NCBI RefSeq assembly: GCF_002934325.1
Contig: NZ_PTIV01000004.1
Span: 1-64,000, forward strand
Length of the DNA stretch: 64,000 nt
DNA from: Marinobacter persicus
GTDB taxonomy: Bacteria; Pseudomonadota; Gammaproteobacteria; Pseudomonadales; Oleiphilaceae
Reading direction: 5' to 3'
Of the stretch, positions 38,208 through 63,744 are shown in pieces. A program made the position numbers and the translations under genes. The notes below the pieces were generated by a model that was not told the DNA's origin, did no database searches, and saw only the letters and a program-made list of their open reading frames with translations. How positions within the stretch are numbered: the first letter of the stretch is position 1; every line of letters begins with the position of its first letter.

Positions 38208-39668
38208 ATGTCTGCCAGCCTTCGTGTCGTTAAAAGTGCCGGTCTGCTGCTGAGCCTCCAGCTGATACAGCGCGGGCTGGGCATTGTCAGCACCCTGATC
38301 CTTGCCCGGCTGCTGTTGCCGGAGCACTTCGGCGTCGTGGCACTGGTGATGATCGCCCTGCAGTTCTTTGAATTACTGGTGGAAACGGGCAGCCAGCAGT
38401 ACATCATCCAGAAGACAGAGGTGAGCAATACCGACCTCAATACCGCCTGGAGCATGGACATCAGCATAAAATCCGCCATGTGCCTAGTGATCATCATGCT
38501 TTCCGTTCCCATTGCTTCGTTCTTTGATACACCAGCCCTGGCGCCTGCCTTGGCCGTGGCTTCGGTAACCCTGCCCATTCGTTCCCTGAAAACACCCGGC
38601 GTGATGCTCCTGGCCCGGGAAATTAACTACCGGCCTGTGTTCCGATTGACGCTATGGCAAAAACTGCTGTCGTTCGCCACCGTTGTTACCTGGGCGTTTA
38701 TCAGCCCCAGCCATTGGGCGATGATTGCCGGGACGGTAGTCTCAGCTGTTGTGTTCACCATCGGCTCCTACCGCGTGCATGATTTTCGGCCATCCTGGAC
38801 CCTGGCCCATCTCGGCCAGCAGTGGCGATTTTCCCAGTGGTTGCTGATGCGGGGAATCGTCGGATTCACCCGTTCCCAGATTGATAACCTGATGGTCTCC
38901 CGTTGGTTCGGCACCACCCAGCTGGGTGGCTATAACCTGGTCCGGGAAGTGAGCCTGTTGCCAGCTTTATCTGCGATCATCCCAATGACTGAACCGCTGC
39001 TGGCAGCCATTGCCGAAGGCAAAAAGGAAGCGGATACCCTCGCTTTTCGGGTTCGGTTGGGAATGGCGTTGCTGATCACAGTGCTCACGCCGATCACCGC
39101 TTTCATCATGATGTACCCGGAGCTGATTGTGCGTGTGCTGCTGGGGCCGGACTGGAGTGAATTTGCGGGCCTGCTACGGCCATTTGGGCTGTTCTTCTTT
39201 ACGTTTTGCCTGTTCTCCGTGATCAGTGACGCCCTGATTGCCCAGGGGCGAGTGAAATTGCTGTTCTGGTTTGATCTGTTATCCACGCTGATCATTATTG
39301 CCGTGCTCGCCGGCATAGCACGGGAAAGCCTCTACACCATGGCCTGGGCCAGGGGCTGGCTGGCGGTGGCGACCACAGTATTGTTGCTGGTCATCCTGGA
39401 CCGGGAAACAAAATTCAGCGTTGGCCGGCTTGCGTTACTCTGCCTGCCCGCGGCCGCAGGCACACTGTTCGCTCTTTCCCTGACCATCGCATTACCGCTT
39501 GCCAGCCAGCACTTTCTGGTGGAGTTCCTGACCAGGGGTGTCGTTTTTGTATTTTCAGCAGCGGCAGCCACACTTGTCATAGCCTGGCTCTGGATGCGAG
39601 GTAGCGAGGAAGGACACCAGCTGCGATTCCTTGTCAAAAAACTTTACAGTGAACGGAAAAGCGCCTAA
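38208..39668 (+). CDS. Polysaccharide flippase, Wzx/WzxC-like
   Basis: 486 residues with about 12-14 hydrophobic helices and the MOP-superfamily opening LLLSLQLIQRGLGIVSTLILARLLLPEHFGVVAL. The second half has the GGYNLVREVSLLPALSAII block common to lipopolysaccharide flippases. It should move lipid-linked oligosaccharide units across the inner membrane. It sits 3 bases after xrtA. A second flippase domain occurs in the fusion gene at 53579-55975, so the locus holds two. Confidence 0.88.
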   Translation: MSASLRVVKSAGLLLSLQLIQRGLGIVSTLILARLLLPEHFGVVALVMIALQFFELLVETGSQQYIIQKTEVSNTDLNTAWSMDISIKSAMCLVIIMLSVPIASFFDTPALAPALAVASVTLPIRSLKTPGVMLLAREINYRPVFRLTLWQKLLSFATVVTWAFISPSHWAMIAGTVVSAVVFTIGSYRVHDFRPSWTLAHLGQQWRFSQWLLMRGIVGFTRSQIDNLMVSRWFGTTQLGGYNLVREVSLLPALSAIIPMTEPLLAAIAEGKKEADTLAFRVRLGMALLITVLTPITAFIMMYPELIVRVLLGPDWSEFAGLLRPFGLFFFTFCLFSVISDALIAQGRVKLLFWFDLLSTLIIIAVLAGIARESLYTMAWARGWLAVATTVLLLVILDRETKFSVGRLALLCLPAAAGTLFALSLTIALPLASQHFLVEFLTRGVVFVFSAAAATLVIAWLWMRGSEEGHQLRFLVKKLYSERKSA

Positions 39669-46708: not shown

Positions 46709-47863
46709 ATGAGAGTACTAACCGTCTTTGGTACCCGGCCGGAAGCCATCAAAATGGCGCCTCTGGCCCTGGCTCTGGCGAATACTCCCGGTTTCCATGC
46801 GAAGGTCTGCGTCACTGCCCAGCACCGGCAGATGCTGGATCAGGTTCTCGAGCTTTTTGATCTCCGCCCGGACCACGACCTTAACCTGATGAAACCCGGC
46901 CAATCCCTGAGTCGCTTGACCGGCGATATCCTCCAGGGCCTGGAACCGGTATTTCAGGAGGAACGCCCTGACCTGGTGTTGGTGCATGGCGATACCACCA
47001 CGACCCTGGGCGCCAGTCTGGCGGCCTATTACCAACACATTGCCATAGGCCACGTAGAGGCAGGCCTGCGCACCGGCAACCTGTATTCACCCTGGCCCGA
47101 GGAAGCCAACCGCAAGCTCACCAGCGCCCTGGCGAACCTGCATTTCGCACCCACCAATACCGCCCGCGACAACCTGCTGCGTGAAGGGGTGTCAGAGCAA
47201 CATATCCGGGTTACGGGTAATACAGTTATTGATGCTTTGTTGATGGTCCGGGATCGCATTGATGGGGACCGGGCCCTGGCTAAACGCCTGCAGCACCAAT
47301 TTGCCTTTCTGGATGGCCATAAAAAGCTGGTCCTGGTCACGGGCCACCGTCGGGAGAGCTTTGGTGCAGGCTTCGAACGTATCTGCCAGGCCATTGCCCG
47401 GATGGCGGACGAACATCCGGACCTGGAGGTTGTCTACCCGGTACACCTGAACCCCAACGTTCGCGAACCCGTCCTGCGCCTGCTCGGCAATAACCGGTCG
47501 GTTCATCTGATCGAACCGCTGGATTACCTGCCTTTTGTGTACCTGATGAACCGCAGCCACCTGATCCTGACCGACTCCGGTGGCATTCAGGAAGAAGCCC
47601 CCTCCCTCGGCAAACCCGTGTTGGTTATGCGCGACACCACCGAGCGTCCGGAAGCGGTGGAAGCCGGCACGGTCAAGCTGGTAGGCACTGACATTGAGCG
47701 CATTGTTGGCGAGGTGAAACGGCTCACCAAGGATCGCTTTGCGTATCGGAGCATGGCCCGGGCCTATAACCCTTACGGCGATGGCCTTGCCTGCCAACGA
47801 ATCATCAAGGCGCTGCAGGCCGATCCCTCCTATTTCCGCAAGGTACAAGGACTCTGTTTATGA
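46709..47863 (+). CDS. wecB: UDP-N-acetylglucosamine 2-epimerase (non-hydrolysing)
   Basis: Interconverts UDP-GlcNAc and UDP-ManNAc in the cytosol. 384 residues, normal length. Signature segments are [13 protein letters not shown] (7-19), [20 protein letters not shown], the [10 protein letters not shown] block and [35 protein letters not shown] stands 6 bases before the ATG. It overlaps wecC by four bases, so the pair makes UDP-ManNAc uronic acid for the polysaccharide. Confidence 0.94.
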
Positions 47864-49134
47864 ATGACCTCAAACGCATTGTCGTCATGGGATTGGGTTA
47901 TGTCGGGTTACCCACCGCTGCGGTGTTTGCATCCCGGCGGGTTGATGTTCTCGGTGTGGATGTGAATCAGCGTGCGGTGGACACCATCAATCAGGGCAAA
48001 GTGCACATTGTGGAGCCCTCCCTGGACATTGTGGTTCGAGCCACAGTGACCGAAGGGTACTTGCGCGCCGCAACCCGGCCCGAACCCGCCGACGCCTTCC
48101 TGATTGCCGTGCCCACACCGTTCAAGGATGGCAACGTGCCCGACCTGAGTTACGTGGAAGCCGCCACGCGCTCACTAGCCGCTTCGTTGCGGCCGGGCAA
48201 TCTGGTGGTCCTTGAATCCACTTCCCCGGTTGGCACCACCGAAGCGGTATGTGAATGGTTGGCCGAGGAACGCCCTGACCTCACTCTTCCCCATTCCCAT
48301 GGCTCTGCTTCCGACATCCGGGTGGCTCACTGTCCCGAGCGGGTGCTGCCAGGACAGGTTATCCGGGAACTGGTGGAAAACGACCGGGTGATTGGCGGCA
48401 TCACGCCCTACTGCGCTGAAACCGCTGTCACACTCTACCGCCAGGTGGTCCAGGGAGAATGCGTCATTACCACGGCCCGGACGGCGGAACTGGCAAAGCT
48501 GGCCGAAAACAGCTTCCGGGATATCAACATTGCCTATGCCAATGAGTTGTCACTGATCTGCGATCGCCTGGATATCAACGTCTGGGAAATGATTCGGCTG
48601 GCGAACCGGCACCCAAGGGTGAACATCCTGCAGCCCGGTGCCGGTGTGGGTGGCCACTGCATCGCCGTGGACCCCTGGTTTATTGCCCACAGTGCCCCCG
48701 AGCAAGCGCGGCTCATTCGCACCGCAAGAGACATCAACGATCATAAGCCCGACTGGGTCATGACCAAGGTGCAAAGTGCCATTGAACGAATGGAGCAGGA
48801 CCACCCGGGCACCCAGCGCAGCGATATTCGTGTGGCCTGCCTAGGCGTGGCGTTTAAACCCGACATCGATGACCTCCGGGAAAGCCCAGCCCTGCGAATC
48901 ACCCAGGGCATTGCGAAACTGGGGTGCCAGGTGCTGGTGGTGGAACCCAACGTGCGGGAATTGCCGCCGTCATTGCAGGCCGACAACATCAAACTGGTGA
49001 ACATGCTGCAGGTTTTGCAGACAGCAGACATTACCTGCGTGCTGGTCCGCCACGCCTCATTCATGGAAATACGCAACCTGCTCCACGAGGTTGACGGATT
49101 AATCGATGTGGTCGGCCTGACGGAAGCCCCGTAA
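47860..49134 (+). CDS. wecC: UDP-N-acetyl-D-mannosamine dehydrogenase
   Basis: Oxidises UDP-ManNAc to UDP-ManNAcA with NAD+. 424 residues. The NAD-binding motif [14 protein letters not shown] is at 11-24. A catalytic Cys lies in [15 protein letters not shown], with the upstream [10 protein letters not shown] and [18 protein letters not shown] blocks of the UDP-sugar dehydrogenase family, and the C-terminal domain starts [22 protein letters not shown]-glucose dehydrogenase is the main alternative; pairing with wecB decides for the ManNAc enzyme. Confidence 0.92.
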
Positions 49135-50622: not shown

Positions 50623-52575
50623 CTACTGCACTTCTCCCGAGACCACTTCCGACCCGGGGCTCACCAGTCCACCGGTGTCCACCACATATACCTGGAAGTA
50701 CCAGGTACCGGTCGCCAGCCCGTCGAAGGTGTAGCTGGTGGTGCCAGCTTCAACGTCAACGGTCTGTGAGAGATCTTCGATCTGCTGCCCATAATCAACC
50801 CGGTAGTGATCAATTTCACTGAGTGAGATTGAGCTACCGTCGATACGGGTACCCGGTGCCGTCCAGGAAAGGGTTATCTGTCCACCGGTGTCCGGAGTGG
50901 TTGTGGTCGGTGGCGTAACCTCAACCGGTTCAGTCACATCTTCCAGTGTCCAGGGATGAACGCCCATCTGATAAGCCTCCAGGCTGGTCAGCCCCTGGCT
51001 ATTGTGGACGGTTCCAGCGTCATCTTCCCAGGGATTCAGGCCATAACTAAGCTCCCAGACATCCGGGATGCCATCCGCGTCGGAATCCACCAGAAGTGTT
51101 TGTTCCGTCATATCCAGAACTGGCCTCTGGAAAGTGCTGGCTTGATCAATAACAGTACCGGTCTGTGGATCCGACAACCACAGCTCTACCGATGCCCCTC
51201 CCTGGCCCTCGTAATATTCAGCCACCAACTCATAGGGAGCCTGTCCGGCATCCAGTTCAATGGTCGCGGAATAGGTGGTGGGCGCCTGTGCTTTCCAGCC
51301 GGAGAGGACCTGCTCACCATTCAGCCAGGCTCGTACGCCGTCATCCCCCCGCATGTTCAACTGGTAGGTTTTTGTACCCGTATCGTGGGGCGGATAAATC
51401 TGTGCAAACCAGCGCACGGCAAACCAGTCACTCGGTATGGCTGGATCCGGACTGCCATTACCCCAGCTAAACTTGATCGCTTCATCGGTACGGGTAAAGG
51501 CGAAATCGATAAACCGGTCACTGGCAAAATAATGGCCTACAAAACCATTCTGCATAACCAGCGCCGGGGGCTCAGGTTCGCCGTGAAGGTATTCGTAGAG
51601 GTTGACGGTTTCCCCCTCGATTTCAACATAGAGGTCATTTGGATCCAGTGGATCCAGGCCATAGGCGTACTTCTCCCCATCCGTCAGGCCATCGCCGGAA
51701 GTATCGGGATTGGTCGGATTGGTGCCCACCAGAAACTCTTCTTCGGCACTCAGGAGATCTCCATCCGTGTCGGTTGAGGCATCAGAGGGGTCGGTTGGGT
51801 CCAGGCCATAATAGACTTCCCAATTGTCGTAGAGACCGTCTTCATCCTGGTCCAGCGGGGGGTAGTCCTGTGAGAAAGCCAGCCCCTTGTCGCCATCAAA
51901 ATACCCAATTCGATATCCCAGGCTGTAACTCTGCGAGGCATCACCACTCTCAAAGGCCGAAGGTGCCCAGGAGGCAAGATAATCACCGCTAATAATCTGC
52001 TGGCCCATATTCGGTCCGGTCCAGGCAACGCTGAAGTGATCGCCGCCGCCGGCCTGCTTATGGAGCAGCTCGAAATAGTACCGGTTGCCACCACTCAGGC
52101 TAATCGATCCAGACCGTTGTGACGCATACTGGCTATAATCTTCGGCTTTGGTCCACCTCGGTACATGAGCAACCTGGCGCAGATTGTCCGCTGACGCATC
52201 GGAACTCAGGAACAGCTCCGACTCATCATCCGAGGCGACAAAGAACTCATAGCTACCATCCGTCGGTGGAATAATGTAACCGCGAACCAGTGTCCCGTAG
52301 TCGTTGCCTCGCTTGGTCAGACGTGCCAGCTGGTTCAACGCGGCAACCTCCGTGGGTTGGTCCGGGAAAATCGCAGAAGCGGTCAAGTCGTCCAGCACCA
52401 TACCTGACACATCATCGTAGTATTGCGCGTAGACGGTTCCGGGCTCGCTGGTAGAGGGAATGGCAGCGGTTGGTGGCAGATCGTCGATGGACCTTCCGCC
52501 CATGGACTGGCAACCCGCCAACACAGTCATTGCCAACAATATGGAAATCAGACCTGTTTTACCCATGGCAGACAC
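50623..52575 (-). CDS. PA14-domain lipoprotein with calcium-type repeats and Fn3 domain
   Basis: 650 residues. The start is the GTG at 52573-52575, with AAGGAGG 5 bases upstream; an ATG three codons later is less well placed. The lipobox is VLAG|C (Cys22). Domain order: PA14 (about 45-170, VYAQYYDDVSG, FFVASDDESELFLSSD), Asp-rich thrombospondin-3-like repeats (about 225-300: DQDEDGLYD, DTDGDLLSAEE, DTSGDGLTDGE), a second PA14-like domain (about 330-470), another DSDADGIPDVWE repeat, and a C-terminal fibronectin type III domain (about 550-650). PA14 domains bind carbohydrate. This suggests a surface-anchored protein that holds the exopolysaccharide. The family is unnamed. Confidence 0.82.
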   Translation of the reverse strand: MSAMGKTGLISILLAMTVLAGCQSMGGRSIDDLPPTAAIPSTSEPGTVYAQYYDDVSGMVLDDLTASAIFPDQPTEVAALNQLARLTKRGNDYGTLVRGYIIPPTDGSYEFFVASDDESELFLSSDASADNLRQVAHVPRWTKAEDYSQYASQRSGSISLSGGNRYYFELLHKQAGGGDHFSVAWTGPNMGQQIISGDYLASWAPSAFESGDASQSYSLGYRIGYFDGDKGLAFSQDYPPLDQDEDGLYDNWEVYYGLDPTDPSDASTDTDGDLLSAEEEFLVGTNPTNPDTSGDGLTDGEKYAYGLDPLDPNDLYVEIEGETVNLYEYLHGEPEPPALVMQNGFVGHYFASDRFIDFAFTRTDEAIKFSWGNGSPDPAIPSDWFAVRWFAQIYPPHDTGTKTYQLNMRGDDGVRAWLNGEQVLSGWKAQAPTTYSATIELDAGQAPYELVAEYYEGQGGASVELWLSDPQTGTVIDQASTFQRPVLDMTEQTLLVDSDADGIPDVWELSYGLNPWEDDAGTVHNSQGLTSLEAYQMGVHPWTLEDVTEPVEVTPPTTTTPDTGGQITLSWTAPGTRIDGSSISLSEIDHYRVDYGQQIEDLSQTVDVEAGTTSYTFDGLATGTWYFQVYVVDTGGLVSPGSEVVSGEVQ

Positions 52576-52678: not shown

Positions 52679-52693
52679 GTTACATTTAGTTAC
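52679..52693. promoter_or_regulatory. Copy D (degenerate) of the TGTAAC-N5-GTTACA palindrome
   Basis: On the minus strand GTAACTAAATGTAAC, one base from the palindromic form, is followed two bases later by TATAGT, a good -10. It lies ~105 bp upstream of the PA14 lipoprotein gene and overlaps the last codon of the GT2 gene. Confidence 0.35.
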
Positions 52694-53595
52694 TTAAGGA
52701 TGAGCTTGCGCACCCACAAGGCATAAGCCAACCCGGCCCGACCAGAGCCCAGACAGGCCAGGTAATGACGTAGCGCCTTCCCCCTGAACCCCTGGGTCAG
52801 CGCGGCATTGGCAAAGCTGATGTGCTTGGCTGCCAGTTTTCGATGGAGATGGCGCCGGAAAGGCTTTGGCGTATCCAGCTCGTTCAGCACCCGAAGCAGG
52901 AAATCCAGCTCCCGGGTGAGGTAAGCGAGAGATTTTGAGAGTGAGTCCGGCGTGTCATTCACTACAAATGTGGGAATATCCCGAAAGCGGATGTTACGGG
53001 TGAGCGACAGCCGTATGGCCAGCCAGGACCATTCGAAGTATTTCTGGATCCCGTTAAAGTATTCCGGGCCGACAGTGGCCGACCGGAACAGGCCACCGCA
53101 GGAAGCCAGCCAGTTAGCCCGGGTCAAGCCCATCAGTGGGTTCTCTGCATTGTCTGTCAGCCCGGAAAACATCAGTGTCTCTGTTTCCCGGCCGCTATCA
53201 TCACACTGGCGACGGTACCCATTGGTCACCAGAACATCGATCAAGGGATGGCGATCCATTAACCGCAGGCGTGTACTCAGTGTGCCCGGCAGGTACTCGT
53301 CATCGTCATCAAGAAAGCAGAAATACCGCCCCCTGACCGCCTGGCGGCCCCGCGCAATCGCCCGGGTAAGATCCCCCTCCGGCAAATAGATCAGCCGGAC
53401 ATCCGGACGTGACTCCAGAGAGGCCCGCAAATTCGGGCAGTAACGATCGCCATTGAGAACCACCACAACTTCGATCCCGATATCGTTACCGGCCCTGACC
53501 GAGGTAATGGCCCATTCCAGCGACTGCCAGCGGCTGGCTTCTCCTGCCGTCGGAATAATCACGCTGACTGCCGGTGCGTTACCCATCTTCACCAT
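52690..53595 (-). CDS. Glycosyltransferase family 2
   Basis: 301 residues. GT-A fold: SVIIPTAGEASRWQSLEWAI at the N-terminus, VVVVLNGDR, and the metal-binding Asp cluster FLDDDDEYLPGTL near residue 95. The acceptor side carries GGLFRSATVGPEYFNG and FEWSWLAIRLSL. The C-terminus is basic. Start: the ATG at 53593-53595 has GAGG 8 bases upstream and overlaps the fusion gene by 17 bases; a second ATG 9 bases on is possible. Last gene of the minus-strand operon. Confidence 0.85.
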   Translation of the reverse strand: MVKMGNAPAVSVIIPTAGEASRWQSLEWAITSVRAGNDIGIEVVVVLNGDRYCPNLRASLESRPDVRLIYLPEGDLTRAIARGRQAVRGRYFCFLDDDDEYLPGTLSTRLRLMDRHPLIDVLVTNGYRRQCDDSGRETETLMFSGLTDNAENPLMGLTRANWLASCGGLFRSATVGPEYFNGIQKYFEWSWLAIRLSLTRNIRFRDIPTFVVNDTPDSLSKSLAYLTRELDFLLRVLNELDTPKPFRRHLHRKLAAKHISFANAALTQGFRGKALRHYLACLGSGRAGLAYALWVRKLILK

Positions 53596-55975
53596 GTTCC
53601 GCCCTCATTTCAGCCAACACACGGCGCGCCACCATTTCATAGTAGCCGCCCCGGTGTTTGAGGATGAAGTGCACGTAGCGTGCGCGTGAAAAATCCACCA
53701 AACGACGGGTTTCCGGCCGGGCATTCGTCACCAGCGGGTATTTCGAAAACTCCAGTGCCGAGGCCGGCCGGTGTGCGAGGATCAAGCGCCAGATGCACTC
53801 ATCGCCATAGAGCGGCAGGTCCGGGTTTTCCAGCAGTTTCTCCAGCACCTCGGCCACCAGTTCCGTGGTAACAACATCCCGGGAGTAGCCGAACAGGCCA
53901 CCATTGAAGCGTTCCGGGTACTCAAGCCCGGGGAAGCAAGCCTCACACGCCGCCTGCGAGAGTCTGAAATTCGGTCCCCAGGGAACACTGTAGAACGACT
54001 TCTGGTCCCCGGATTCAATCCACTCCATCAATTCCACTGGTGGATTAATGAACAGGGTGTCGGAGTCCAGCACAATGATCCGCTCACGCTTAGCCAGCAC
54101 ATGAAAATCCAGCACTTTCAGGGCCCAGGCTGCCCTCTGGCGGTCATACCCTGGGCCAAGCGTGAACCTTGCCGGAATACGATCCCGAAGTTCCGCCAGC
54201 CATGGATGCGAAGCCATGGCCTGGTCAGCCTCCGCCAACAGGATTACCCGACAACCCGGCACCTGGTTTTCCAGAAAGCGCTTGTGCTCCGCTGTCAGGG
54301 TGGCATCACCGTGAACAACCACAGCCAGTCCCGGGCGGAACCGCAACAGCGATTTCAGCGATGCCAGCGCCATGTCCAGATCATGCACGCAGGTGAGCAT
54401 GTGCAGTTCCACCTCTGCCTCGGGCTGGCATGGAATCGGAGGTAATTGCGCAAAGCCGGCCAGAGTCTTTCTGAGAGGTTTCCGGTACCGCACCTCGTGA
54501 TACTTGCGAACCCAACTGACCGGCAGGCGCTTCTCACGGATAAACACCTGATAGAGTCTCGGAAAGATATTCACCTCCTGCCACAAGGGATGCCCAATCA
54601 GGCCCAGGGTAAAAAACCAGACCGGCGTGATCACAACCGCCATCACCAGCACCGACAGCCAGGGCGGTGCCGTGTCGAAACCAATCCACAGATCAAGCGC
54701 AAGAGCGGTTCCCACACAGATGAGCGCAAGTGCCGCATTCCGCCACCACGCCTTTAATAGCTGCTGCGCAGACAGCTGGAACTGACGCCAGACAATCCAG
54801 GTCGTCAGCGTAATGTCCACAAGCCCCACCAGGACAAACGCAAACGCGGCGTAGATAAGTCCGAAAGGAAACAGCCCGATCACGCCCAAAATGCAAACCG
54901 ATAGCAGGGCCAGCTCCCGAAACATCAGCAGCTTCTCACGGCCACTGGACAGCAGCAGCTCCGGGGCCAGACCGTGGACGCAGCGCATCATCGCCCAAAC
55001 CGCCAGCACAGAGGCCAATGGTGCCGCCTGGTCCCACTGGTCGCCGAAGAAGAACCGGATCACCACCAGGCTACTGACAGCGGCGACCGCCAGCACCGGC
55101 CACAACACGCCACCCAACAATACCCCGGCCCGCAGATAGGCCTCACCCACATCGCCCCGGGTTCGGACCTTGTCGGAAAGATAAGGCAAGACCACCGGTC
55201 CCACGCCCTGCTGGACAGTATTCGAGAGGAAATCGACAAATCCCAGCCCCCGGGAAAACAGGCCCACATGGGTGGTGGTACCAAGTTTGCCAATAATCAT
55301 GTCGGGCACGGTCAGCAGGGACTTTTTCATCATGTTGGAAGCGGAGCTGAACACACCCAATTGCATGACCGGAAAAATGCCACGAAAGACCGGGCGCCAA
55401 TACCGATCGTGGCTCAGCCTATTGGCCAGTAGCATCTGGATGAGGGTGTTGGCCGCAAGCCCCACGGCCATGGAGTAGTAACTCAGGCCCATAAAAATAC
55501 CGCCCAGGGTCACCAGGAAGCCCCCACCGGCACCGCAGACGCCAATAACCAGTAGCCGGCCAAAATCCATCTGGCGCTGGAGCAGCGCGGTCGGAATGCT
55601 GACAAACGGTGCCAGGAAAAAACTCAGGGACAGCAAGTAAAACAGTGTTTCCAGACCGGCGATGTCATAGAAATCAGCCACCCAGGGAGACGCCAGCACC
55701 ACGGCACCACCCAGTCCCCAGGAAATCAAAAAGGTCACGCCCAGTGCACTGCGGATTTTTGTCTCGGACAACTCGGGCTCACGCACCAGGTACACCCCGG
55801 CGCCCAGCAAGCGGAACTCACTCAGCACCATGACAATGGCACTGCCAATGGCCCAGGTACCAATTTCACCCGGTGTCAGCAGGCGCGCCACCACCACCGT
55901 CGACAGCAGACCGATGGCCATCAACAGATAGCGCGACAGCGATGAATAGATAACCGATTGCCGGACGGATGCCAT
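53579..55975 (-). CDS. Fusion: Wzx-type flippase plus glycosyltransferase domain
   Basis: 798 residues in one uninterrupted frame. Residues 1-~480 are a MOP-family polysaccharide flippase with about 12-14 helices (opening QSVIYSSLSRYLLMAIGLLSTVVVARLLTPGEIGTWAI given as its start). After a basic linker, residues ~515-798 form a soluble domain with LHMLTCVHDLDMALASLKSLLRF, the metal-binding DSDTLFINPP near 638, and FNGGLFGYSRDVV. These features are typical of GT-A glycosyltransferases of the glycogenin/GT8-like kind. The topology puts the transferase on the cytosolic side if the helix number is even. The domain pairing suggests addition of a sugar just before export. I know of no named family with this pairing. 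Confidence 0.8.
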   Translation of the reverse strand: MASVRQSVIYSSLSRYLLMAIGLLSTVVVARLLTPGEIGTWAIGSAIVMVLSEFRLLGAGVYLVREPELSETKIRSALGVTFLISWGLGGAVVLASPWVADFYDIAGLETLFYLLSLSFFLAPFVSIPTALLQRQMDFGRLLVIGVCGAGGGFLVTLGGIFMGLSYYSMAVGLAANTLIQMLLANRLSHDRYWRPVFRGIFPVMQLGVFSSASNMMKKSLLTVPDMIIGKLGTTTHVGLFSRGLGFVDFLSNTVQQGVGPVVLPYLSDKVRTRGDVGEAYLRAGVLLGGVLWPVLAVAAVSSLVVIRFFFGDQWDQAAPLASVLAVWAMMRCVHGLAPELLLSSGREKLLMFRELALLSVCILGVIGLFPFGLIYAAFAFVLVGLVDITLTTWIVWRQFQLSAQQLLKAWWRNAALALICVGTALALDLWIGFDTAPPWLSVLVMAVVITPVWFFTLGLIGHPLWQEVNIFPRLYQVFIREKRLPVSWVRKYHEVRYRKPLRKTLAGFAQLPPIPCQPEAEVELHMLTCVHDLDMALASLKSLLRFRPGLAVVVHGDATLTAEHKRFLENQVPGCRVILLAEADQAMASHPWLAELRDRIPARFTLGPGYDRQRAAWALKVLDFHVLAKRERIIVLDSDTLFINPPVELMEWIESGDQKSFYSVPWGPNFRLSQAACEACFPGLEYPERFNGGLFGYSRDVVTTELVAEVLEKLLENPDLPLYGDECIWRLILAHRPASALEFSKYPLVTNARPETRRLVDFSRARYVHFILKHRGGYYEMVARRVLAEMRAEHGEDG

Positions 55976-55979
55976 CGGC

Positions 55980-57104
55980 TCAGGACTCCTTGTGGGCCGC
56001 TTCCCGATAAATCTCCTGGTAGGCGTTCACCATGACCTCCCGGGAGAAACGTTCGTCAAATCGCGTCCTGGCGCCCTGCCCCAGCTGCGATCTGGTTTCG
56101 GGCTCCTGCCAGAGCCCGATCATTGCCTCGGCGAAGGCCTGTTCGTCGTCCACTGGCACCAGCATGCCGTTGATGCCCTCACGAACAATCTCGGGATTAC
56201 CTCCGACATCGGTCGCCACAGCCGGGATACCCAGGCTCATGGCTTCCAGAAGGGTCATGGAGGTGCCTTCGGTGAACGAAGACAGCAAAAACACCTCCAT
56301 CAACGCCATATGATTAGCGGGCTGAGACACCGAGCCGGTAAAAGTCACCCGCTCGCTGATGCCCAACTCCCCGGCCAGGAACTGCAACGATTCCCGCTCG
56401 GCTCCGTCGCCCACCACCAGCAGCCAGCCTTCCGGGCACTGTTGCAGGAACCGGTGAAAGGCGCGCAGCATCATGGACTGGTTTTTCACCGGGTCCATGC
56501 GTGAGACCGTGCCCATCACAAACGCCTCCTCCGGAATCCCCAACTCCGCACGCAACGCCGCCACCCGGTCATGGTCGGGCTGCAAAGCAGCGATGCCGTT
56601 ATAGACCACCCGGATGCGCGAGCGCGGCAGGAATTCATACCGGGCAAGTGCCTGACGAGTGGCGTCGGAAATCGCCACCATCGCCCGGCTTGTCCGGGCC
56701 ATTGCCTGGTTCACCAATGCCGCCTTGTAGCGATAGCGGTCGGGGTAAAAACGGCCATGCTCCGTGAACACAACACTGACCGGCAACCCCAGCGCGGCGA
56801 ACCAGCCATAAACCCAGGGGGTGTATTGGTGGCAATGGACAACATCAAAATGGCCCTTGCGCAAACGGGTCCGGATGATGCGGATCAGACTGCGATCAAA
56901 CCCCGGGCGCCGCTGTACTGCCACTATGGGAATGCCAGACTCCCGGAGCTGCTCACCTATGGCGCCCACCTGGCCGTCAATACACAGGATTTCACTGGTC
57001 ACCTTCTCCGAATCCAGGCCCGTAATCAGCTGACGTATTACCTGTTCGGTGCCGCCGATCCCCATATTGAAGGTCACATGCAGTACTCGCACCGTGTCAG
57101 TCAT
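55980..57104 (-). CDS. XrtA/PEP-CTERM-associated glycosyltransferase, GT4
   Basis: About 374 residues from the ATG at 57102-57104, which forms an ATGA overlap with the amidotransferase gene; an in-frame upstream start would overlap by 31 bases. GT-B fold: VLHVTFNMGIGGTEQVIRQL, FDVVHCHQYTPWVYG and FTEHGRFYPDRYRYK, then VVYNGI, GTVSRMDPVKNQ and the donor motif FTEGTSMTLLEAMSLGIPAVATDVGG (E-x7-E). It resembles the GT assigned to exosortase A loci (TIGR03088-type). It adds a sugar at the inner membrane; specificity unknown. Confidence 0.87.
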   Translation of the reverse strand: MTDTVRVLHVTFNMGIGGTEQVIRQLITGLDSEKVTSEILCIDGQVGAIGEQLRESGIPIVAVQRRPGFDRSLIRIIRTRLRKGHFDVVHCHQYTPWVYGWFAALGLPVSVVFTEHGRFYPDRYRYKAALVNQAMARTSRAMVAISDATRQALARYEFLPRSRIRVVYNGIAALQPDHDRVAALRAELGIPEEAFVMGTVSRMDPVKNQSMMLRAFHRFLQQCPEGWLLVVGDGAERESLQFLAGELGISERVTFTGSVSQPANHMALMEVFLLSSFTEGTSMTLLEAMSLGIPAVATDVGGNPEIVREGINGMLVPVDDEQAFAEAMIGLWQEPETRSQLGQGARTRFDERFSREVMVNAYQEIYREAAHKES

Positions 57105-58999
57105 GCCAGATGCCCTCCATAATTCCGCCACCAGAGGGCGAACGCCACCATGCTCCAGAGTTCCTGGGTGTGGCGGTCATTGCCATCGAGGTGGGATTGC
57201 CAGAGCTTTTTCACTTCGCCCATGTCAAAACACCGGGCCAGGCCGCCTTCGGGATCGGTCAACAGCTCATCAGCCAATGGCCGGATTTCCCGGCGCAGCC
57301 ACTGGGCCAGGGGCACGGAAAAGCCCATTTTTTTCCGGTAGAGAATGTCGTCGGGTAGTAACCGACGAAAGCTGCTTTTGAGAATCGCCTTGCCTTCCTT
57401 GCCGCGAAGCTTCAGGCCCGCCGGGATGGAGGCGGCGTACTCCACCACCCGGTAATCAAGCAGCGGTGCCCGGGTTTCCAGGGAATTGGCCATGCTCATC
57501 CGGTCCACCTTCACCAGGATATCCCCCGGCAGATAGGTCTTGATGTCGGTGTAGAGGATCCTGGAAAGATGGTCATCCGCCGGCGCCTCGCGGTAATGCT
57601 TGCGGGTGACGTCCGCCGGATCGTAATCGCGGGTACTGGCGGCAAATTCTGGCGTTACCAGGCGGTCCCACACCGACTGTCGGAAGAAGCAGTTGGACAT
57701 GAAAAAGCCGGTATCAGGCTCCTGGGCCAGGGTTTCCATCAAGGTCTGGGCCTTGTTGGTCAGCGTGTGCCGGAAGCAGCCAGCGATGCCGGCCAATGGC
57801 GGCAACAGGTGATGCCGGAGTGTTCCGGGAACAAGGCTGCGCAACCGGTTTTCCACGGCGTCCGTCTGGTACTTGCTGTAGCCGGCAAAGTTTTCATCGC
57901 CACCATCGCCGGCCAGGGCGACCGTCACTTGCTGCCGGGCCAGCTGCGAAACGAACCAGGTGGGCACAAAAGAAGCATCCGCAAAGGGCTCGTCAAAATA
58001 GCGGGCAATGCTTTCCAGGCGCTCCGCCACGTTGTCACGAACCGTAAATTCGTGATGATCGGTTCCAAATTGCTGGGCCACCTGGCGTGCGTAGTGCACC
58101 TCGTCAAAGCGCTCGGAATCAAAGCCAATAGCACAGGTGGTGACAGGCCGGGGCGCGTGGCCGGCCATCAGCCCAACCACGGCACTGGAATCGACACCAC
58201 CACTCAGGAAGGCCCCCAGAGGAACATCACTGATCATGCGCTGGCACACCGCTTCATCGATCAAACCAAACAGCTCGTCTTCAATCTGCCCGACACTGCG
58301 CCCGACCAAAGGGTGAAAGGACAACTCCCAATAACGACCGGTTATTGTATTCAGGCCATCGGTCTTCAACCAGCAGCCCGGTTCCAGCTTGAACACATCC
58401 TGGTAGATGGTTTTAGGGTCCGGCACGTATTGATAGGCAAAGAAATCCTTCACCGCATCCGGTCTCAACGCGGGCCTGAAGAAGGGCAACTCCAACAGAG
58501 CCTTGATCTCGGAGGCAAAAGCCAGCTGTCCTTCACCAAACCAGTAGTACAGGGGTTTCTTGCCCAAGCGATCCCGGGCCATGAACAGCTCTCCGCCCTG
58601 CCGATCCCAGATCGCAAAGGCAAACATACCGTTCAAACGCTCCAGACAGGCCTCGCCCCGACGTTCATAAAGTTCCAGCAGCACCTCGGTGTCTGTCCGG
58701 GTGTGGAATACGACGCCCTGCTGTTCCAGCTCCCGGCGGAGCTGGGCGAAGTTGTAGATTTCACCATTGAAAACGATGACATAACGCCCGGAGGTGGAAA
58801 CCATGGGCTGAGTGCCAGCGTCACTGAGATCGAGAATGCTCAAGCGGCGGTGGCAGAGCCCGATACGGTCATCCAGATAGATGGCACCGGCGTCTGGCCC
58901 CCGATGAACAATCGCCTGCCCCATGGCCTGGAGCCAAGGTTCATGGTTGGAGCGCTCGGGAGTACCAGGATTGCGAAAAAAGCCAGCCAGTCCACACAT
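57101..58999 (-). CDS. Asparagine-synthase-like amidotransferase (XrtA system)
   Basis: 632 residues. The N-terminal glutamine amidohydrolase domain has catalytic Cys2 (MCGLAGFF) and HRGPD, NGEIYNF and RTDTEVLLELY. The C-terminal ATP-pyrophosphatase domain has the PP-loop SGGVDSS near 265, GDGGDENFAGY and KVDRMSMANSLETRAPLLD. By family it transfers glutamine nitrogen to an acid via an adenylate. In exosortase A loci the acceptor is more likely a uronic acid of the polysaccharide (possibly ManNAcA from WecBC) than aspartate; that is inference. All catalytic motifs are intact. Confidence 0.9.
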   Translation of the reverse strand: MCGLAGFFRNPGTPERSNHEPWLQAMGQAIVHRGPDAGAIYLDDRIGLCHRRLSILDLSDAGTQPMVSTSGRYVIVFNGEIYNFAQLRRELEQQGVVFHTRTDTEVLLELYERRGEACLERLNGMFAFAIWDRQGGELFMARDRLGKKPLYYWFGEGQLAFASEIKALLELPFFRPALRPDAVKDFFAYQYVPDPKTIYQDVFKLEPGCWLKTDGLNTITGRYWELSFHPLVGRSVGQIEDELFGLIDEAVCQRMISDVPLGAFLSGGVDSSAVVGLMAGHAPRPVTTCAIGFDSERFDEVHYARQVAQQFGTDHHEFTVRDNVAERLESIARYFDEPFADASFVPTWFVSQLARQQVTVALAGDGGDENFAGYSKYQTDAVENRLRSLVPGTLRHHLLPPLAGIAGCFRHTLTNKAQTLMETLAQEPDTGFFMSNCFFRQSVWDRLVTPEFAASTRDYDPADVTRKHYREAPADDHLSRILYTDIKTYLPGDILVKVDRMSMANSLETRAPLLDYRVVEYAASIPAGLKLRGKEGKAILKSSFRRLLPDDILYRKKMGFSVPLAQWLRREIRPLADELLTDPEGGLARCFDMGEVKKLWQSHLDGNDRHTQELWSMVAFALWWRNYGGHLA

Positions 59000-59001
59000 A
59001 C

Positions 59002-60156
59002 TCAGCCTGCGCCCCCTGCCATGTGAACTGACGCGCTTCCGCGCCCCATCAGTTGGGCGAACAGCAACGAGTACTCCCGGGCCATTCGCCCGGCGGAATA
59101 CTCCGTTTCAATGGTTTTTCGGGCGGCTGCAGCCAATCGTCGGCCCCATTCGGCATCCGCAAGCAATCGCCGGCAGCTGTCGGCCAGGGCTTGCTGGTCT
59201 CCGTAGGGCACCAGCAGACCGTTGTGCTCATGCTCAATCAACTGATCAACCCCCGGAATGTCATAAGCAACCACCGGAACCCCCACAGCCATCGCTTCCA
59301 TCATGCAACGCGGAATACCTTCCAGTGATGACGTCATCACAAACAGATCAAACCGGCTCAACAACGCCAGCCGGTCGTTGCGAAAGCCCAGAAACTCGAT
59401 GCCCGGCGCACTGTCCTGTGCCGCTGCCTGCTGCTCGAGCTCCGGTCGTTGTCTGCCATCACCCAATAGCTGCAGACGCAAGGAAGGATCACGGCCGTAG
59501 AGTTGGTCAAATACCGACAGCAGGTCCGGAATACCTTTCCTGGGAATCATCTGGCCCACAAAACCGATGACTTTCCGGTCCTCAACCGGTTCTCTCGGTG
59601 GCATTTCGCAGAGCGCCTGGTCGATCTCCGCCAGGTCCACGCCATTACGGATAAACCGAACCTTATGCTCAGGCACTCCGAACCGGGCCATGTCTGCCAC
59701 CAGCTCTTCGGACAACGGAGCAACGGCATCAAAATGGCGAAGCGTGTAGGTACCCAGCCGGATGAAGAGGGCCATTTTCAGGCCTACCCTGCCCGCAAAC
59801 CCGTGGGGCGTGCTGACACAACGAATACCAGTCTTGCGGGCCGCCAGAAAACCCAGGATGTCGGATTTGTAGCCATGGGAATGAATGATGTCGATCTCAC
59901 GCTCCCGGATAATCGCCGCCAACCGATTGACCACCCGCCAGTCAAAGCGACCAGCCATCGGGACGCGATGAACCTGCCCTACCGAAGCCGGGTAGAGTTC
60001 AGCCAGCGTCAGGTCCTGGTCAGAAGTCTCCTGACTGACGGCCAGGTCACACACCACCTGACCCGGTTCCAGGTTATTGGCCAGAGCCAGTATCCAGCGC
60101 TCGGCGCCATAAAAACCCGATGGCGTAATAAACTGCAGAATCCGAAGAGGTCTCAT
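59002..60156 (-). CDS. Glycosyltransferase, GT4
   Basis: 384 residues. GT-B fold: ILQFITPSGFYGAERWILALANN at the N-terminus, IDIIHSHGYKSDILGFLAA and STPHGF, then FIRNGVDL, VIGFVGQMIPRKGIPDLL and the donor motif SSLEGIPRCMMEAMAVGVPVVAYD. It overlaps the upstream polymerase-like gene by four bases and ends two bases before the amidotransferase start. One of several inner-membrane transferases that build the repeat unit; donor and linkage unknown. Confidence 0.87.
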   Translation of the reverse strand: MRPLRILQFITPSGFYGAERWILALANNLEPGQVVCDLAVSQETSDQDLTLAELYPASVGQVHRVPMAGRFDWRVVNRLAAIIREREIDIIHSHGYKSDILGFLAARKTGIRCVSTPHGFAGRVGLKMALFIRLGTYTLRHFDAVAPLSEELVADMARFGVPEHKVRFIRNGVDLAEIDQALCEMPPREPVEDRKVIGFVGQMIPRKGIPDLLSVFDQLYGRDPSLRLQLLGDGRQRPELEQQAAAQDSAPGIEFLGFRNDRLALLSRFDLFVMTSSLEGIPRCMMEAMAVGVPVVAYDIPGVDQLIEHEHNGLLVPYGDQQALADSCRRLLADAEWGRRLAAAARKTIETEYSAGRMAREYSLLFAQLMGRGSASVHMAGGAG

Positions 60157-61499
60157 GAGTCAACACGTCCATTTGCAACCTGAGGGTATTTCCCGCCTCC
60201 GGTATCGCTGCGGCTCGCCTTGTCCTGCAGGTAGTAGACATTGATGGCCGCAGCCAGGAAAAGAATCATCCAGTAGAGGATCTCGGCCCGGAACCGGTCG
60301 ATAAACGAGCCGGCCACCAGGAAGCCGATCAGAGCGCATTCAAGGGCCAGCAGCTTGAAATAGGCTCTCGTGTTCTCCTGCTCCAGCACATGGCGTTTGG
60401 CCCGCCGGGATAACCGGTACAGTGACAGCAACAAAAACCCGAACACCACCATGCCCTGCCACCCGGTCTCCGCCAGGCCCTGGAACCACATGGAATGCAC
60501 GGCCCGATGTTCCACACCTCCCCGGGTCTCTTCATCCATGTAAACCGGCGACAGGGTTTCATAGCCACCCACGCCAATACCCAGGGGGTAATCGTCCATC
60601 ATGTCGAAGGTGGCCCACCAGAAGGCCAGCCGGCTCGCGCCGCTGACATTGCGATCTTCGGACTGGAGCGTCTGGACCCGCTCCCAAAACAGGTCATCGG
60701 CAACATACAGGCCACCACTGATGCCCACCACAATCATGAGTATCGCCGCCGCCCGCTGGCCTTTCTGCTGGTACCTGGAAAAGAGCATATAAAACAGGAA
60801 GACGGTCAGGCTGAGCGCAACACCAAGAAACGCGCCCCGACTGTTGATCAGCACCAGGCCGTTGGCGATGAACGCGCCACAGAACAGTGCCAGCAGGCGC
60901 ACCTTCATGTTTCCCAACCAGGCGTAATACATAAGAATCACCGCGGCCGGCACCAGCGCCGCGGCAGTGTGGTTCGCATCCGGCGCATCCACCATGCCGA
61001 TGCCTTCCACCCGGCCATAGGCATTGCGCCCGTTAAGCCAGGCCAGGTAGCCGATGTAGGTGGCGCCGATCACATACGCCCATAGGCAAGCCGTCAGCGC
61101 CCGCTCGGAATAGATCAGTTTGTAGGCGATCATCATGATGATCACCAGCTTCAGGAACTGAAAGCTGTAGGCCTTGTGCAGCGGCAGGTTGACCGCGTAC
61201 AGGTACCCCACGTAATACAGAATCACCAAGGCAATCATGTACTTGAAGATCGGCATCTCCGACCAGGGGGCCAGCCGGCCGTAATCCCGGAACTTCAGGG
61301 CCACTACGAGCATCATCAACAGCACGGTGATCATGGAATAACGCAAACCAGGGATCACCGCTGACCACCAGCGATCATCGGGATTCAGGAAATAGACCAG
61401 CTGGTAGATTACCAACGCGGCCGTGCCGCTGTAGACCAGCGCGGCGATCAGGCTTCCGAAGAACACCGTTAAAAACAGCAGCGCGAACTTCGACATCAC
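60153..61499 (-). CDS. O-antigen polymerase/ligase-like membrane protein (XrtA-associated)
   Basis: 448 residues with about 11-12 hydrophobic helices and one large extracytoplasmic loop. The Wzy_C/ligase region contains SRGAFLGVALSL, YPLGIGVGGYE and VHSMWFQGLAETGW. The last includes the conserved His of the family. In exosortase A loci such proteins are annotated as probable O-glycosylation ligases, which might attach glycan to sorted proteins; polymerisation of the exopolysaccharide is the alternative. It overlaps both neighbours by four bases. Confidence 0.83.
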   Translation of the reverse strand: MMSKFALLFLTVFFGSLIAALVYSGTAALVIYQLVYFLNPDDRWWSAVIPGLRYSMITVLLMMLVVALKFRDYGRLAPWSEMPIFKYMIALVILYYVGYLYAVNLPLHKAYSFQFLKLVIIMMIAYKLIYSERALTACLWAYVIGATYIGYLAWLNGRNAYGRVEGIGMVDAPDANHTAAALVPAAVILMYYAWLGNMKVRLLALFCGAFIANGLVLINSRGAFLGVALSLTVFLFYMLFSRYQQKGQRAAAILMIVVGISGGLYVADDLFWERVQTLQSEDRNVSGASRLAFWWATFDMMDDYPLGIGVGGYETLSPVYMDEETRGGVEHRAVHSMWFQGLAETGWQGMVVFGFLLLSLYRLSRRAKRHVLEQENTRAYFKLLALECALIGFLVAGSFIDRFRAEILYWMILFLAAAINVYYLQDKASRSDTGGGKYPQVANGRVDS

Positions 61500-62674
61500 T
61501 CCTGCTCCCGTTTCTGGGCCGGTCGGGCGCTGGCCCAGGTTACCTGGGTCTCACCGGACAAGGCCCTGAGAATGCCCCGTAATGCATACAGGTTGACCAT
61601 CGCAAAGTAATAGGGAACTGAAACCAAACCCGGCAGGCGATTCTTGTCCCGGACCAACATTCCAGCAGCCGCCAACAGCAAACAAGCCACCATGAATATT
61701 GCCAGCCACTGGAATACCAAAACTCCCGCCATTGCCAGCAGCACCGAGCCGACGGCTGCCACCAGCAGGAACACGGGGATCAGCCAGCGCAGCAATTTGT
61801 GCGATACCACCTGCCAGGCAAAGACGCCGACCCGGAACGGATTCATGGTGACTTTCACTCGCATAAGCCCGCGGATGCTTCGATTGACGATGCGCTCCTT
61901 ACGGGCGATTTCACCTTCGAAATGACCTGCTGTTTCCTCGAAACAACGTGCCTCCGGGTCAAATACGCCCCGATACCCAAGCGCGATGATCTGGAGCGGA
62001 TTCACAAAGTCGTTGATGTCTTTTGATTGCAGGGGTTGCCAGAGCGCCCGGCGAATGGCGTATATGGCGCCATCTCCACCCACCACGGAATGCAGGCGGG
62101 TTTCCATCTGTTTGATGGCCAATTCATAGCGCCAGTAAAGATTTTCACTACGGGCACTGGCTCCGGTATCACTGTCGGTATAGAGCGCCGCCCCCACCGC
62201 GTAACCAACCGCCGGGTCGGCGAAATGCCGCACCAACATGCGCAGGGCATCCGGCGCGTACATGGCGTTGGCATCACTGAATACCACCAGCTCACCACGC
62301 GCCTGCTCCATGGCCAGGTTCAGACCCATGGTTTTGCCCAGCCGCCCTTCCTGGCGAATCAGTTGCACGCCCTGGTCGGCAAACGTTCGTACGATCTCGT
62401 CGGTGCCATCGTCCGAGCCATCGGAGACCACCAGAATCTGCAACTGTTCCACCGGATAATCCAGGCTCAGGGCATTCACCAGCTTGTCGTGAATGACCGC
62501 CGCTTCGTTGTAGCAGGAGATGATCAGGGTTAACGGCGGGGTCATGTCTGACTGACGAGCGGGCCTGAACGTGCGCCGGCGGGTCAGCAGCCACAACATG
62601 GCCGGATAACCGACGTACACATACGCCGGCACCAGAAGACTGCACATTGTGATCACCGCCAGAAACTCAATCAT
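61496..62674 (-). CDS. Membrane glycosyltransferase family 2
   Basis: 392 residues from the ATG at 62672-62674, which overlaps the FemAB-like stop as ATGA; a frame running 63 codons further upstream lies inside that gene and is spurious. A transmembrane helix at about 5-25 is followed by the GT-A domain: LTLIISCYNEAAVIHDKL, VVSDGSDDGTDEI, FSDANAMYAP (DxD-type) and QSKDINDF. Two or three C-terminal helices (about 295-350) follow. This is the layout of processive or lipid-acceptor GT2 enzymes. Confidence 0.85.
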   Translation of the reverse strand: MIEFLAVITMCSLLVPAYVYVGYPAMLWLLTRRRTFRPARQSDMTPPLTLIISCYNEAAVIHDKLVNALSLDYPVEQLQILVVSDGSDDGTDEIVRTFADQGVQLIRQEGRLGKTMGLNLAMEQARGELVVFSDANAMYAPDALRMLVRHFADPAVGYAVGAALYTDSDTGASARSENLYWRYELAIKQMETRLHSVVGGDGAIYAIRRALWQPLQSKDINDFVNPLQIIALGYRGVFDPEARCFEETAGHFEGEIARKERIVNRSIRGLMRVKVTMNPFRVGVFAWQVVSHKLLRWLIPVFLLVAAVGSVLLAMAGVLVFQWLAIFMVACLLLAAAGMLVRDKNRLPGLVSVPYYFAMVNLYALRGILRALSGETQVTWASARPAQKREQE

Positions 62675-63744
62675 AAGCTGATGTGCTTCCTCAGATGCGG
62701 GCCAATCCGGTTGGCCAGGCCCAGGGGTAAACGCTGCCAACAGGCTTCCACCAACTGACGGGAATGCCGGGCCAGTTTGCCGGGACCACTCCCCCCGACA
62801 CTGGTTATCCGGCCATCGACGTGCCAGTTCTGCCATTGAAGCTCTACCGGCCACGCCCCCCACTGGCGCTTGAAACGATAAGTGCCCTCGCCCAGGCTGG
62901 ACCGCCCGAAATCAAACTGTTCACACCCCAACCGGGTGGTTTCGCTCAGCAGTTGCCAGTACAACAGCATGTTAGGAGCCAGGTGGTTGTACTCGCTCAG
63001 CGTCGACGCCCAGGGAATACAGGCCTGCCGGCCCTGGATCAACACCACGCCTGCAGCCACCACACGCTGCTCCAGCCGCACCAGACCGACCAGCAGCTGC
63101 GGCCCGAAAGTTGCCTGAAGGGCCTGGAACCAGGCTCTGGCATGCACCGGCGACCCCAAGCGCCGCATGTTGGCGGCGAAAACCGGATAGAAGGCGTCTA
63201 TCGCCTCCGGACCGTACTCAACGGTCGCCGTCAGACCGTTTTTTTCCGCCTTGCGAATCTGACTTCGCAACTTGGTCCGGAAGCCGGCAAACAGGGCCTG
63301 GGGTGTGGCGGGCAGATCCGCCAGCAAACTGACTTTTTCTCCCAGGCTTTCCGGATCGGGCCGAATCACGGATTCCTCATCGAGTGGCTGCCCGCGCTGG
63401 CGTATTTCCATCCGGCCTATTCCCAGGTCATCCAGCAGGGTCCGGGCTCCTTCTGCCAGCGCAGAGCCACTGTCCTCTCCCTCGGACACAGGGCCGCCCA
63501 GATCACAAAAAGGCAGCGACACCAGGGCATCCCGCCCAGGTCGGCGCAGCTGGCAGACCGGTAGAACACCAACCATGGCGCCATCCTGCCAGGCCGAGAC
63601 CAACCAGCCAGGGTGTCCGTAGGACTGCTGAATAGCCTGCAGCCAGGCCGGGTGGTGATAGGCTGTTGCCTGGGGCTGCTGGGCAATGAACCGCCGCCAG
63701 GCCTGATGATCCGCGTATTGGAAACGATCAATCCGGATCTGCAT
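62671..63744 (-). CDS. FemAB-family protein (XrtA/PEP-CTERM-associated)
   Basis: 357 residues. Two GNAT-like halves typical of FemAB: FIAQQPQATAYHHPAWLQAI, LFAGFRTKLRSQIRKAEKNGL and the C-terminal YWQLLSETTRLGCEQFDFGRSS with GTYRFKRQWGA. FemAB enzymes use aminoacyl-tRNA to add amino acids to cell-wall or other acceptors. The exosortase-associated branch (TIGR03019-like) has no proven substrate. The start overlaps the stop of the GNAT-like gene by one base (TAATG). Cytosolic. Confidence 0.85.
   Translation of the reverse strand: MQIRIDRFQYADHQAWRRFIAQQPQATAYHHPAWLQAIQQSYGHPGWLVSAWQDGAMVGVLPVCQLRRPGRDALVSLPFCDLGGPVSEGEDSGSALAEGARTLLDDLGIGRMEIRQRGQPLDEESVIRPDPESLGEKVSLLADLPATPQALFAGFRTKLRSQIRKAEKNGLTATVEYGPEAIDAFYPVFAANMRRLGSPVHARAWFQALQATFGPQLLVGLVRLEQRVVAAGVVLIQGRQACIPWASTLSEYNHLAPNMLLYWQLLSETTRLGCEQFDFGRSSLGEGTYRFKRQWGAWPVELQWQNWHVDGRITSVGGSGPGKLARHSRQLVEACWQRLPLGLANRIGPHLRKHISL

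Follow-up and report, generated by a model that had tools for sequence, protein, structure and literature searches.

A single open reading frame of Marinobacter persicus joins a Wzx-like flippase of the MOP type to a glycosyltransferase (GT) that resembles family GT8, and as far as the sequence can tell it is a genuine gene fusion. The frame lies on the minus strand of a 64,000-nucleotide stretch (positions 1 to 64,000 of the forward strand of contig NZ_PTIV01000004.1), which we refer to as the window. In the reading that we prefer, and hold to be probable rather than firm, a flippase and a GT8-like GT of an exopolysaccharide (EPS) gene run became one frame, with a cytoplasmic transferase tethered to the flippase that would export its product. 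Both halves belong to known folds, and the new part is their covalent combination.

A flippase and a glycosyltransferase in one reading frame

The original prediction, a note made from the letters of the window, had proposed one 798-residue frame at 53579–55975 that combines a Wzx-like membrane domain with a C-terminal GT-A domain. The frame was recovered on the minus strand, which the prediction had left unstated: 798 codons with an ATG start span exactly 53579–55975 without interruption, while the plus-strand frame across the same interval contains stops and no N occurs anywhere in the window. Both halves of the polypeptide were confirmed by Pfam and NCBIfam matches, predicted folds and a profile search. 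The features of the fused gene are as follows.

53579–55975, minus strand: fused gene, 798 residues, MOP flippase plus GT8-like GT (open reading frame, Pfam, fold evidence)
54572–55975, minus strand: flippase domain, residues 1–468, 14 predicted helices, WzxE/MurJ fold, positive-inside loops (Pfam, model, Lys/Arg count)
53582–54571, minus strand: predicted GT domain, residues 469–798, DSD at 637–639, His769 (model, fold search, homologue alignment)
54446–54571, minus strand: junction and basic helix, residues ~469–510, with a low-confidence tether at 468–490 and the helix at 486–510 (model, congener alignment)
54571–54579, minus strand: AGGAGGTGA, 9-base Shine-Dalgarno match within the fused gene (anti-Shine-Dalgarno match scan)

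The N-terminal half is matched by PF13440 over residues 28–319 (E 9.6e-45; 153.5 bits, cut-off 23) and by PF01943 over residues 5–268 (50.7 bits, cut-off 28.2); NCBIfam flippase models match the fused protein below their own cut-offs, the best of them spanning residues 9–466. A full-length AlphaFold2 model built from a 10-row alignment (mean pLDDT 81.9, pTM 0.58) has, by our count, 14 long helices in the flippase part; its best matches among solved structures are WzxE over residues 7–400 (Z 33.3, 2.5 Å, 391 residues aligned) and MurJ over residues 5–473 (Z 32.1, 3.3 Å, 445 residues aligned). With segments delimited by the helix borders of this model, the eight cytoplasmic ones contain 21 Lys or Arg and the seven outer ones 3, which by prediction puts the flippase C-terminus on the cytoplasmic side. 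Since the count of predicted helices is even, both ends should lie on that side, and the transferase would therefore be held at the cytoplasmic face. By prediction, this half has the features by which the family is recognized (12–14 helices, both ends cytoplasmic, MOP fold), and we assign it as a MOP/PST (Wzx-like) flippase predicted to flip an undecaprenyl-linked unit.

By helix number the predicted structure is of the 14-helix type. Helices 13 and 14 liken it to MurJ and TacF, which together with RFT1 are given 14 helices in the accessible text of PMC13385700, against 12 for Wzx. Fold, even helix number and EPS-locus context are shared with WzxE, other PST-family MOP flippases and MurJ, from which the fused protein differs by ~330 additional C-terminal residues forming an enzyme domain, at 12–14% identity to WzxE and MurJ. 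TacF of Streptococcus pneumoniae is also a MOP flippase with 14 helices, and its substrate selection controls export; selection there takes place within the transporter itself, and the same accessible text mentions no natural enzyme fusion for TacF (PMC13385700).

The C-terminal half gave no Pfam match up to E = 10 and only chance matches in a phmmer search of the PDB, and no NCBIfam model identified a GT domain in the whole fused protein or in the congener GTs described below. It was identified by fold search and a family profile. Modelled alone with 12 homologues (mean pLDDT 85.9, pTM 0.87), it matched LARGE1 (Z 18.9), glycogenin-2 (18.2), LgtC (18.0) and pneumococcal GlyE (17.9), the VIA-align matches covering residues ~50–328 of the 330-residue model. 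GT8-type GT-A enzymes fill the 50 matches listed by VIA-align (Z 16.5–18.9), and Foldseek agrees. When the PDB was searched with a 13-row GT profile, glycogenin-1 was found at E 4e-4, and its DaD fell opposite the DxD; the C-terminal HF of glycogenin-1 was aligned too, only in a second, very weak profile segment. The original prediction had named a C-terminal fold of some other kind as the outcome that would count against it; the fold searches and the family profile both give a glycosyltransferase.

In GT8 enzymes the DxD and a C-terminal His are metal ligands. The candidates in the fusion are D637 and D639 of the DSD motif, which had been foreseen near residue 638 and stands at 637–639, and H769. 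Every row of the 13-row alignment has the second D of the DxD and the His, and conservation of the first D is at least 90%. We use the name GT8-like, and not GT8, because only 3 of the 13 scanned homologues match PF01501, all below the cut-off (E 0.0018–0.079), and the fused GT domain itself has no match; the predicted model nevertheless has the GT8-type GT-A fold. LgtC, glycogenin and the GT8 domain of LARGE1 share with it this fold, the DxD and the position of the C-terminal HF. The fused GT differs from them in lying beyond the reach of the Pfam GT8 model, in its 9–18% identity in structure alignments, and in being joined to a transporter. An activity of the GT8 kind would be Mn2+-dependent transfer from a UDP-sugar. 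No match resulted when the GT profile was compared by hhalign with a GT2 nearby (61496–62863).

The same two genes are separate in congeners

A three-row GT profile found the GT domain in 3 of 124 genomes of the genus: that of the fusion and two congeners, G979 and G1164. In both congeners the flippase is followed by the GT as a separate, adjacent gene on the same strand, with gaps of 95 bp and 102 bp respectively, near homologues of the amidotransferase (67%), GT4 (60%) and Wzy_C (51%) genes of the fusion region. The congener pair thus resembles the fusion in flippase-then-GT order, in a similar locus type and in the identity of each half, and differs in being two genes and in the order of the neighbouring genes. 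Identity between the fusion and both congeners is 42% for the flippase and 42% for the GT, and that between G979 and G1164 is 91% and 90%, so flippase and GT have kept pace in their divergence. Maximum-likelihood trees place each half with its congener counterparts (support 100/99 and 100/100), the bootstrap of the flippase tree being not fully settled.

The G979 flippase aligns to residues 1–472 of the fusion and the G979 GT to residues 469–786; the junction is therefore clean. It falls at about residues 468–470 (nt 54566–54574), where the flippase tail (HPLWQEVNIFP) passes straight into the GT start (NIFPRLYQVF) with almost no linker. The original prediction had set a linker at about 54400–54560: the low-confidence tether, which extends to residue ~490 (nt 54506), does overlap the upper end of that interval, but the junction itself lies beyond it. 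Because residues 471–490 are predicted with low confidence, the tether is probably flexible there. Residues ~469–510 have their homologue in the N-terminal segment of both congener GTs, and residues 467–518 hold 11 Lys or Arg against 3 Asp or Glu. A frameshift at the linker, the other outcome that the original prediction had said would count against it, is unlikely: as traced with the G979 flippase and GT, homology with the two proteins that the congeners make separately crosses the junction in one frame. Third-position GC of the fused gene is 0.70 in residues 451–500 and 0.70 in residues 501–550.

The coding strand at the junction reads CAG GAG GTG AAT ATC TTT and contains AGGAGGTGA, the longest anti-Shine-Dalgarno match of the fused gene. 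Matches of at least 9 bases have 4 start positions in the 59,664 bases of long frames of the window. The 9-mer itself is present twice in the window (both strands), 0.45 being expected, and 8 of 100 shuffles reach two. An in-frame ATC (I470) stands 5 nt after AGGAGG, and four separate homologues (L021, L022, L023 and L030) start with ATG at that position; both congener GTs start about ten residues upstream of the aligned I470. The match was spotted post hoc, and it is suggestive of a relic ribosome site and start of a formerly separate GT gene, its ATG having drifted to ATC. Because other members of the GT family are seen unjoined to a flippase, and because of this possible relic, we infer that fusion occurred in the lineage of the present genome, rather than a split in the congeners.

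Distribution of the GT family and other flippase–GT joins

Profile searches placed the GT family in 10 of 369 genomes of the class, 5 of which (the fusion genome included) supplied profile rows, and in 6 of 390 genomes of the order, again counting the fusion genome, two of the six being very weak; loci L040 and L041 (E 1.4e-6 and 8.9e-6) were left out as very weak. With the single GT sequence, nothing was found outside the genome of origin among 58 relatives and 398 genomes of the phylum, and 6 of the 369 class genomes, the fusion genome among them, had a match at E ≤0.01, the five others being weak. One of these five, L008, was dropped as chance, its frames being unlike a GT by inspection. 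Phages gave no match. Plasmids gave two weak records: a Gloeothece row was used, and a Sphingobium row, at E 0.1 and under a relaxase gene, was dropped. A single-protein scan of GTDB contigs for close relatives of the whole fusion returned 22 pattern matches, none of them a relative, and a scan with a two-row alignment returned 2 loci, one apparently an already-known contig (G109). As judged from these searches the GT domain is patchily distributed, as expected of EPS genes.

Besides G979 and G1164, one further genome, G359 (same class, another family), has a flippase adjacent to the GT on the same strand: the flippase TGA and the GT ATG abut at 0 bp and in frame with each other (L029:9569–9574). 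The G359 GT is a distant member of the family of the fused GT, and in the trees its flippase and GT fall outside the clades of the fusion; since they sit on other branches, this pairing probably arose separately.

PF13440 was surveyed in 134 genomes of the class; 62 of them yielded 91 matches in all, of which three matches are in the fusion genome. Three matches lie in frames longer than 700 residues: the fusion itself, one in G154 and one in G118. The G118 frame overlaps a sulfatase-like frame and its flippase part is ordinary; it appears to be a false extension and was not counted. In G154 a 777-residue frame (L069:4280–6613) adds ~330 C-terminal residues to a flippase. The extension matches PF13692 (group-1 GT, GT-B) at E 0.0058, below the cut-off, alongside a CoA_trans model at E 0.0028, and gave no GT match in the PDB or NCBIfam. 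We regard it as an independent flippase fusion whose extension is weakly GT-B-like: it resembles the present one in joining a MOP flippase to a C-terminal, possibly transferase domain, and differs in the kind of domain added, whose identification is weak. In a PF01943 survey of 150 phylum genomes, 90 had matches, and among the matches listed the frames longer than 700 residues were the fusion and two others, which run through unreadable bases and were set aside. Joins of flippase and GT are rare and apparently not unique, and the pairing is general only weakly.

Two proteins of ~595 residues (L038:4430–6223 and L039:4624–6408) carry the domain of the fused GT at their C-terminus. A scan in L038 matched its N-terminal part to HtrL_YibB (PF09612), so the GT module is also joined to another partner. 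Beside the G979 locus (L037:10105–12422) lie frames that we take to be transposase-like and group II intron maturase-like.

Genomic context of the fused gene

The neighbours of the fused gene and the second flippase of the region are listed below.

55980–57131, minus strand: GT4 (TIGR03088-like, below cut-off), ending 4 bp before the start of the fused gene (Pfam, NCBIfam)
52690–53595, minus strand: GT2, sharing 17 bp with the end of the fused gene (Pfam)
57101–58999, minus strand: amidotransferase of the asparagine-synthase type, TIGR01536 above cut-off and XrtA TIGR03108 below (Pfam, NCBIfam)
60153–61499, minus strand: membrane protein of the Wzy_C/O-antigen-ligase type (Pfam, NCBIfam)
62671–63744, minus strand: FemAB XrtA/PEP-CTERM-associated protein, TIGR03019 above cut-off (NCBIfam)
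38208–39668, plus strand: second, unfused MOP flippase of the region (Pfam, NCBIfam)

The 4-bp gap to the GT4 gene and the 17-bp overlap with the GT2 gene place the fused gene in a tightly packed minus-strand run. PrsK (TIGR02916), FemAB (TIGR03019), an exosortase signature (TIGR04178) and PEP-CTERM (TIGR02595) were found in the window above their NCBIfam cut-offs; XrtA (TIGR03109; 140.3 of 208 bits) and PrsT (TIGR02917; 253.9 of 312.2) were found below theirs. Judged by this set of exosortase, PrsK, FemAB and PEP-CTERM genes, the window is an XrtA/PEP-CTERM exopolysaccharide region. A neighbour resembling an O-glycosylation ligase scores 83.5 of 188.1 bits, below the cut-off. The separate flippase that the original prediction had noted at 38208–39668 is indeed present and shares this one EPS region with the fused gene, lying in its plus-strand half; a third MOP flippase of the genome lies on another contig (G000:C13:56049–57392), outside the window. 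The original prediction had suggested that the fused flippase may handle a distinct glycan, for example one meant for sorted proteins; this is conjecture, and no feature of the region tells the substrates of its two flippases apart.

A WecB-type epimerase gene (46709–47863) adjoins a WecC-type UDP-ManNAc dehydrogenase gene (47860–49134), both above cut-off. Since these adjacent genes point to UDP-ManNAcA, the EPS of the region probably contains ManNAcA. Between two EPS gene runs, at 50623–52575 on the minus strand, lies a gene for a 650-residue protein with PA14, GLEYA, TSP3 and fn3 domains and, by inspection, a lipoprotein-like start.

Proposed mechanism and alternatives

In the tethered arrangement that we favour, the GT domain would hang from the cytoplasmic end of the last flippase helix by a probably flexible stretch followed by the basic helix, and so stand at the cytoplasmic face, where the nucleotide sugars are. 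It would most likely add a sugar, perhaps a late or terminal one, to an undecaprenyl-linked unit, which the flippase half would then turn over; the likely advantage would be a local hand-over of the finished unit together with fixed 1:1 amounts of the two proteins. The GT activity, its substrate, the order of these steps and any hand-over are the inferred parts of the scheme. Hong and Reeves described units that lack the terminal side branch as inefficiently flipped, with a build-up at the cytoplasmic face that harms growth (PMC4863624), and a preference of Wzx for complete units is argued in the accessible text of PMC6436433. A late-acting GT kept at the flippase would suit such a preference.

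Several observations weigh against this reading. How the two domains sit with respect to each other is poorly predicted (pTM 0.58; block pLDDT 31 and 37 over residues 471–490). Of the 14 other GT loci looked at, 5 have a flippase somewhere in the surrounding stretch, and 3 have it immediately next to the GT in the same orientation; two of these three belong to the close congeners (the Gloeothece locus is not counted). In G151, whose flippase is sister to the fused clade, no member of this GT family adjoins that flippase. Within the genus, only one of the three GT-bearing genomes among the 124 searched has the fusion, and the gene order surrounding the pair differs between the fusion region and the congeners. 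The fusion is known from a single assembly of one strain.

The alternative that fares best is a neutral, stoichiometric fusion, in which the join merely sets the amounts and membrane attachment of two cooperating proteins, with no hand-over or gating; we think it possible, though clearly less likely than the tethered arrangement. The congeners manage with separate genes, the separate GT already starts with a homologue of the basic stretch that follows the junction (a stretch that may touch the membrane), and the tether is of low confidence and probably flexible. However, the recurrence of a join or abutment in unrelated lineages (G359 and G154) hints at a benefit, in numbers that are tiny.

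A second alternative, raised in the original prediction, is a quality-control gate: the GT would add the last sugar, and only a just-completed unit would be offered to the flippase. The poor flipping of units without a side branch, the bad growth that such mutants can show and the preference for complete units all agree with it (PMC4863624, PMC6436433), and the accessible part of PMC13385700 has a title that calls a teichoic-acid MOP flippase a gatekeeper. Known Wzx selectivity works without a fused GT, however, and no confident contact between the domains is predicted in the full-length model, and we consider a gate unlikely. We are a little more doubtful of its boldest form, a finish-and-flip machine in which the GT half adds the last sugar and hands the unit directly to the cavity of its own flippase half, with export dependent on completion, as a recurrent, independently evolved answer to leakage.

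Two further possibilities strike us as about equally improbable. The GT might additionally be made alone, by AUC initiation at residue 470 behind AGGAGGTGA: no anti-Shine-Dalgarno match in the gene is longer, it is well spaced from the ATC, and several separate homologues have an ATG start at the aligned position. AUC is a very poor start codon, however; there is no well-spaced in-frame ATG, GTG or TTG, the next being a GTG at residue 477, 26 nt from AGGAGG, and the match was noticed post hoc. Alternatively, the GT domain might be degenerate and inactive, retained as a sensor or scaffold; its sequence is distant from all Pfam GT models, but the DxD and the His are kept in the fusion and almost throughout its distant homologues. 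Least credible is an assembly or sequencing artefact that lost the stretch between two genes separate in the organism: the fusion comes from one assembly, was found in no other genome searched, and both congeners retain 95–102 bp between the genes, but both homologies reach the junction in one frame, codon-position GC is level across it, and, had the original spacing been congener-like, ~100 bp containing a stop and a start would have had to drop out in frame.

Significance of the fusion

In the accessible open-access literature our searches turned up no account of a fusion between a MOP flippase and a glycosyltransferase. Complexes that unite Wzx with partner proteins have often been proposed, and in a 2015 account the contact between Wzy and Wzz was the only one confirmed (PMC4863624). 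Whether the membrane-side enzymes of the Wzx/Wzy pathway form a complex, and how unfinished units escape flipping, are unsettled questions. Domain databases may contain uncommon architectures that combine Polysacc_synt and GT domains. That a GT and a flippase are covalently joined in nature points to which GT acts beside the flippase, and the fusion is a ready construct for dissecting flipping, for which the separate congener pair provides a matched control. It is a rare natural link between the building of a sugar chain and its export.

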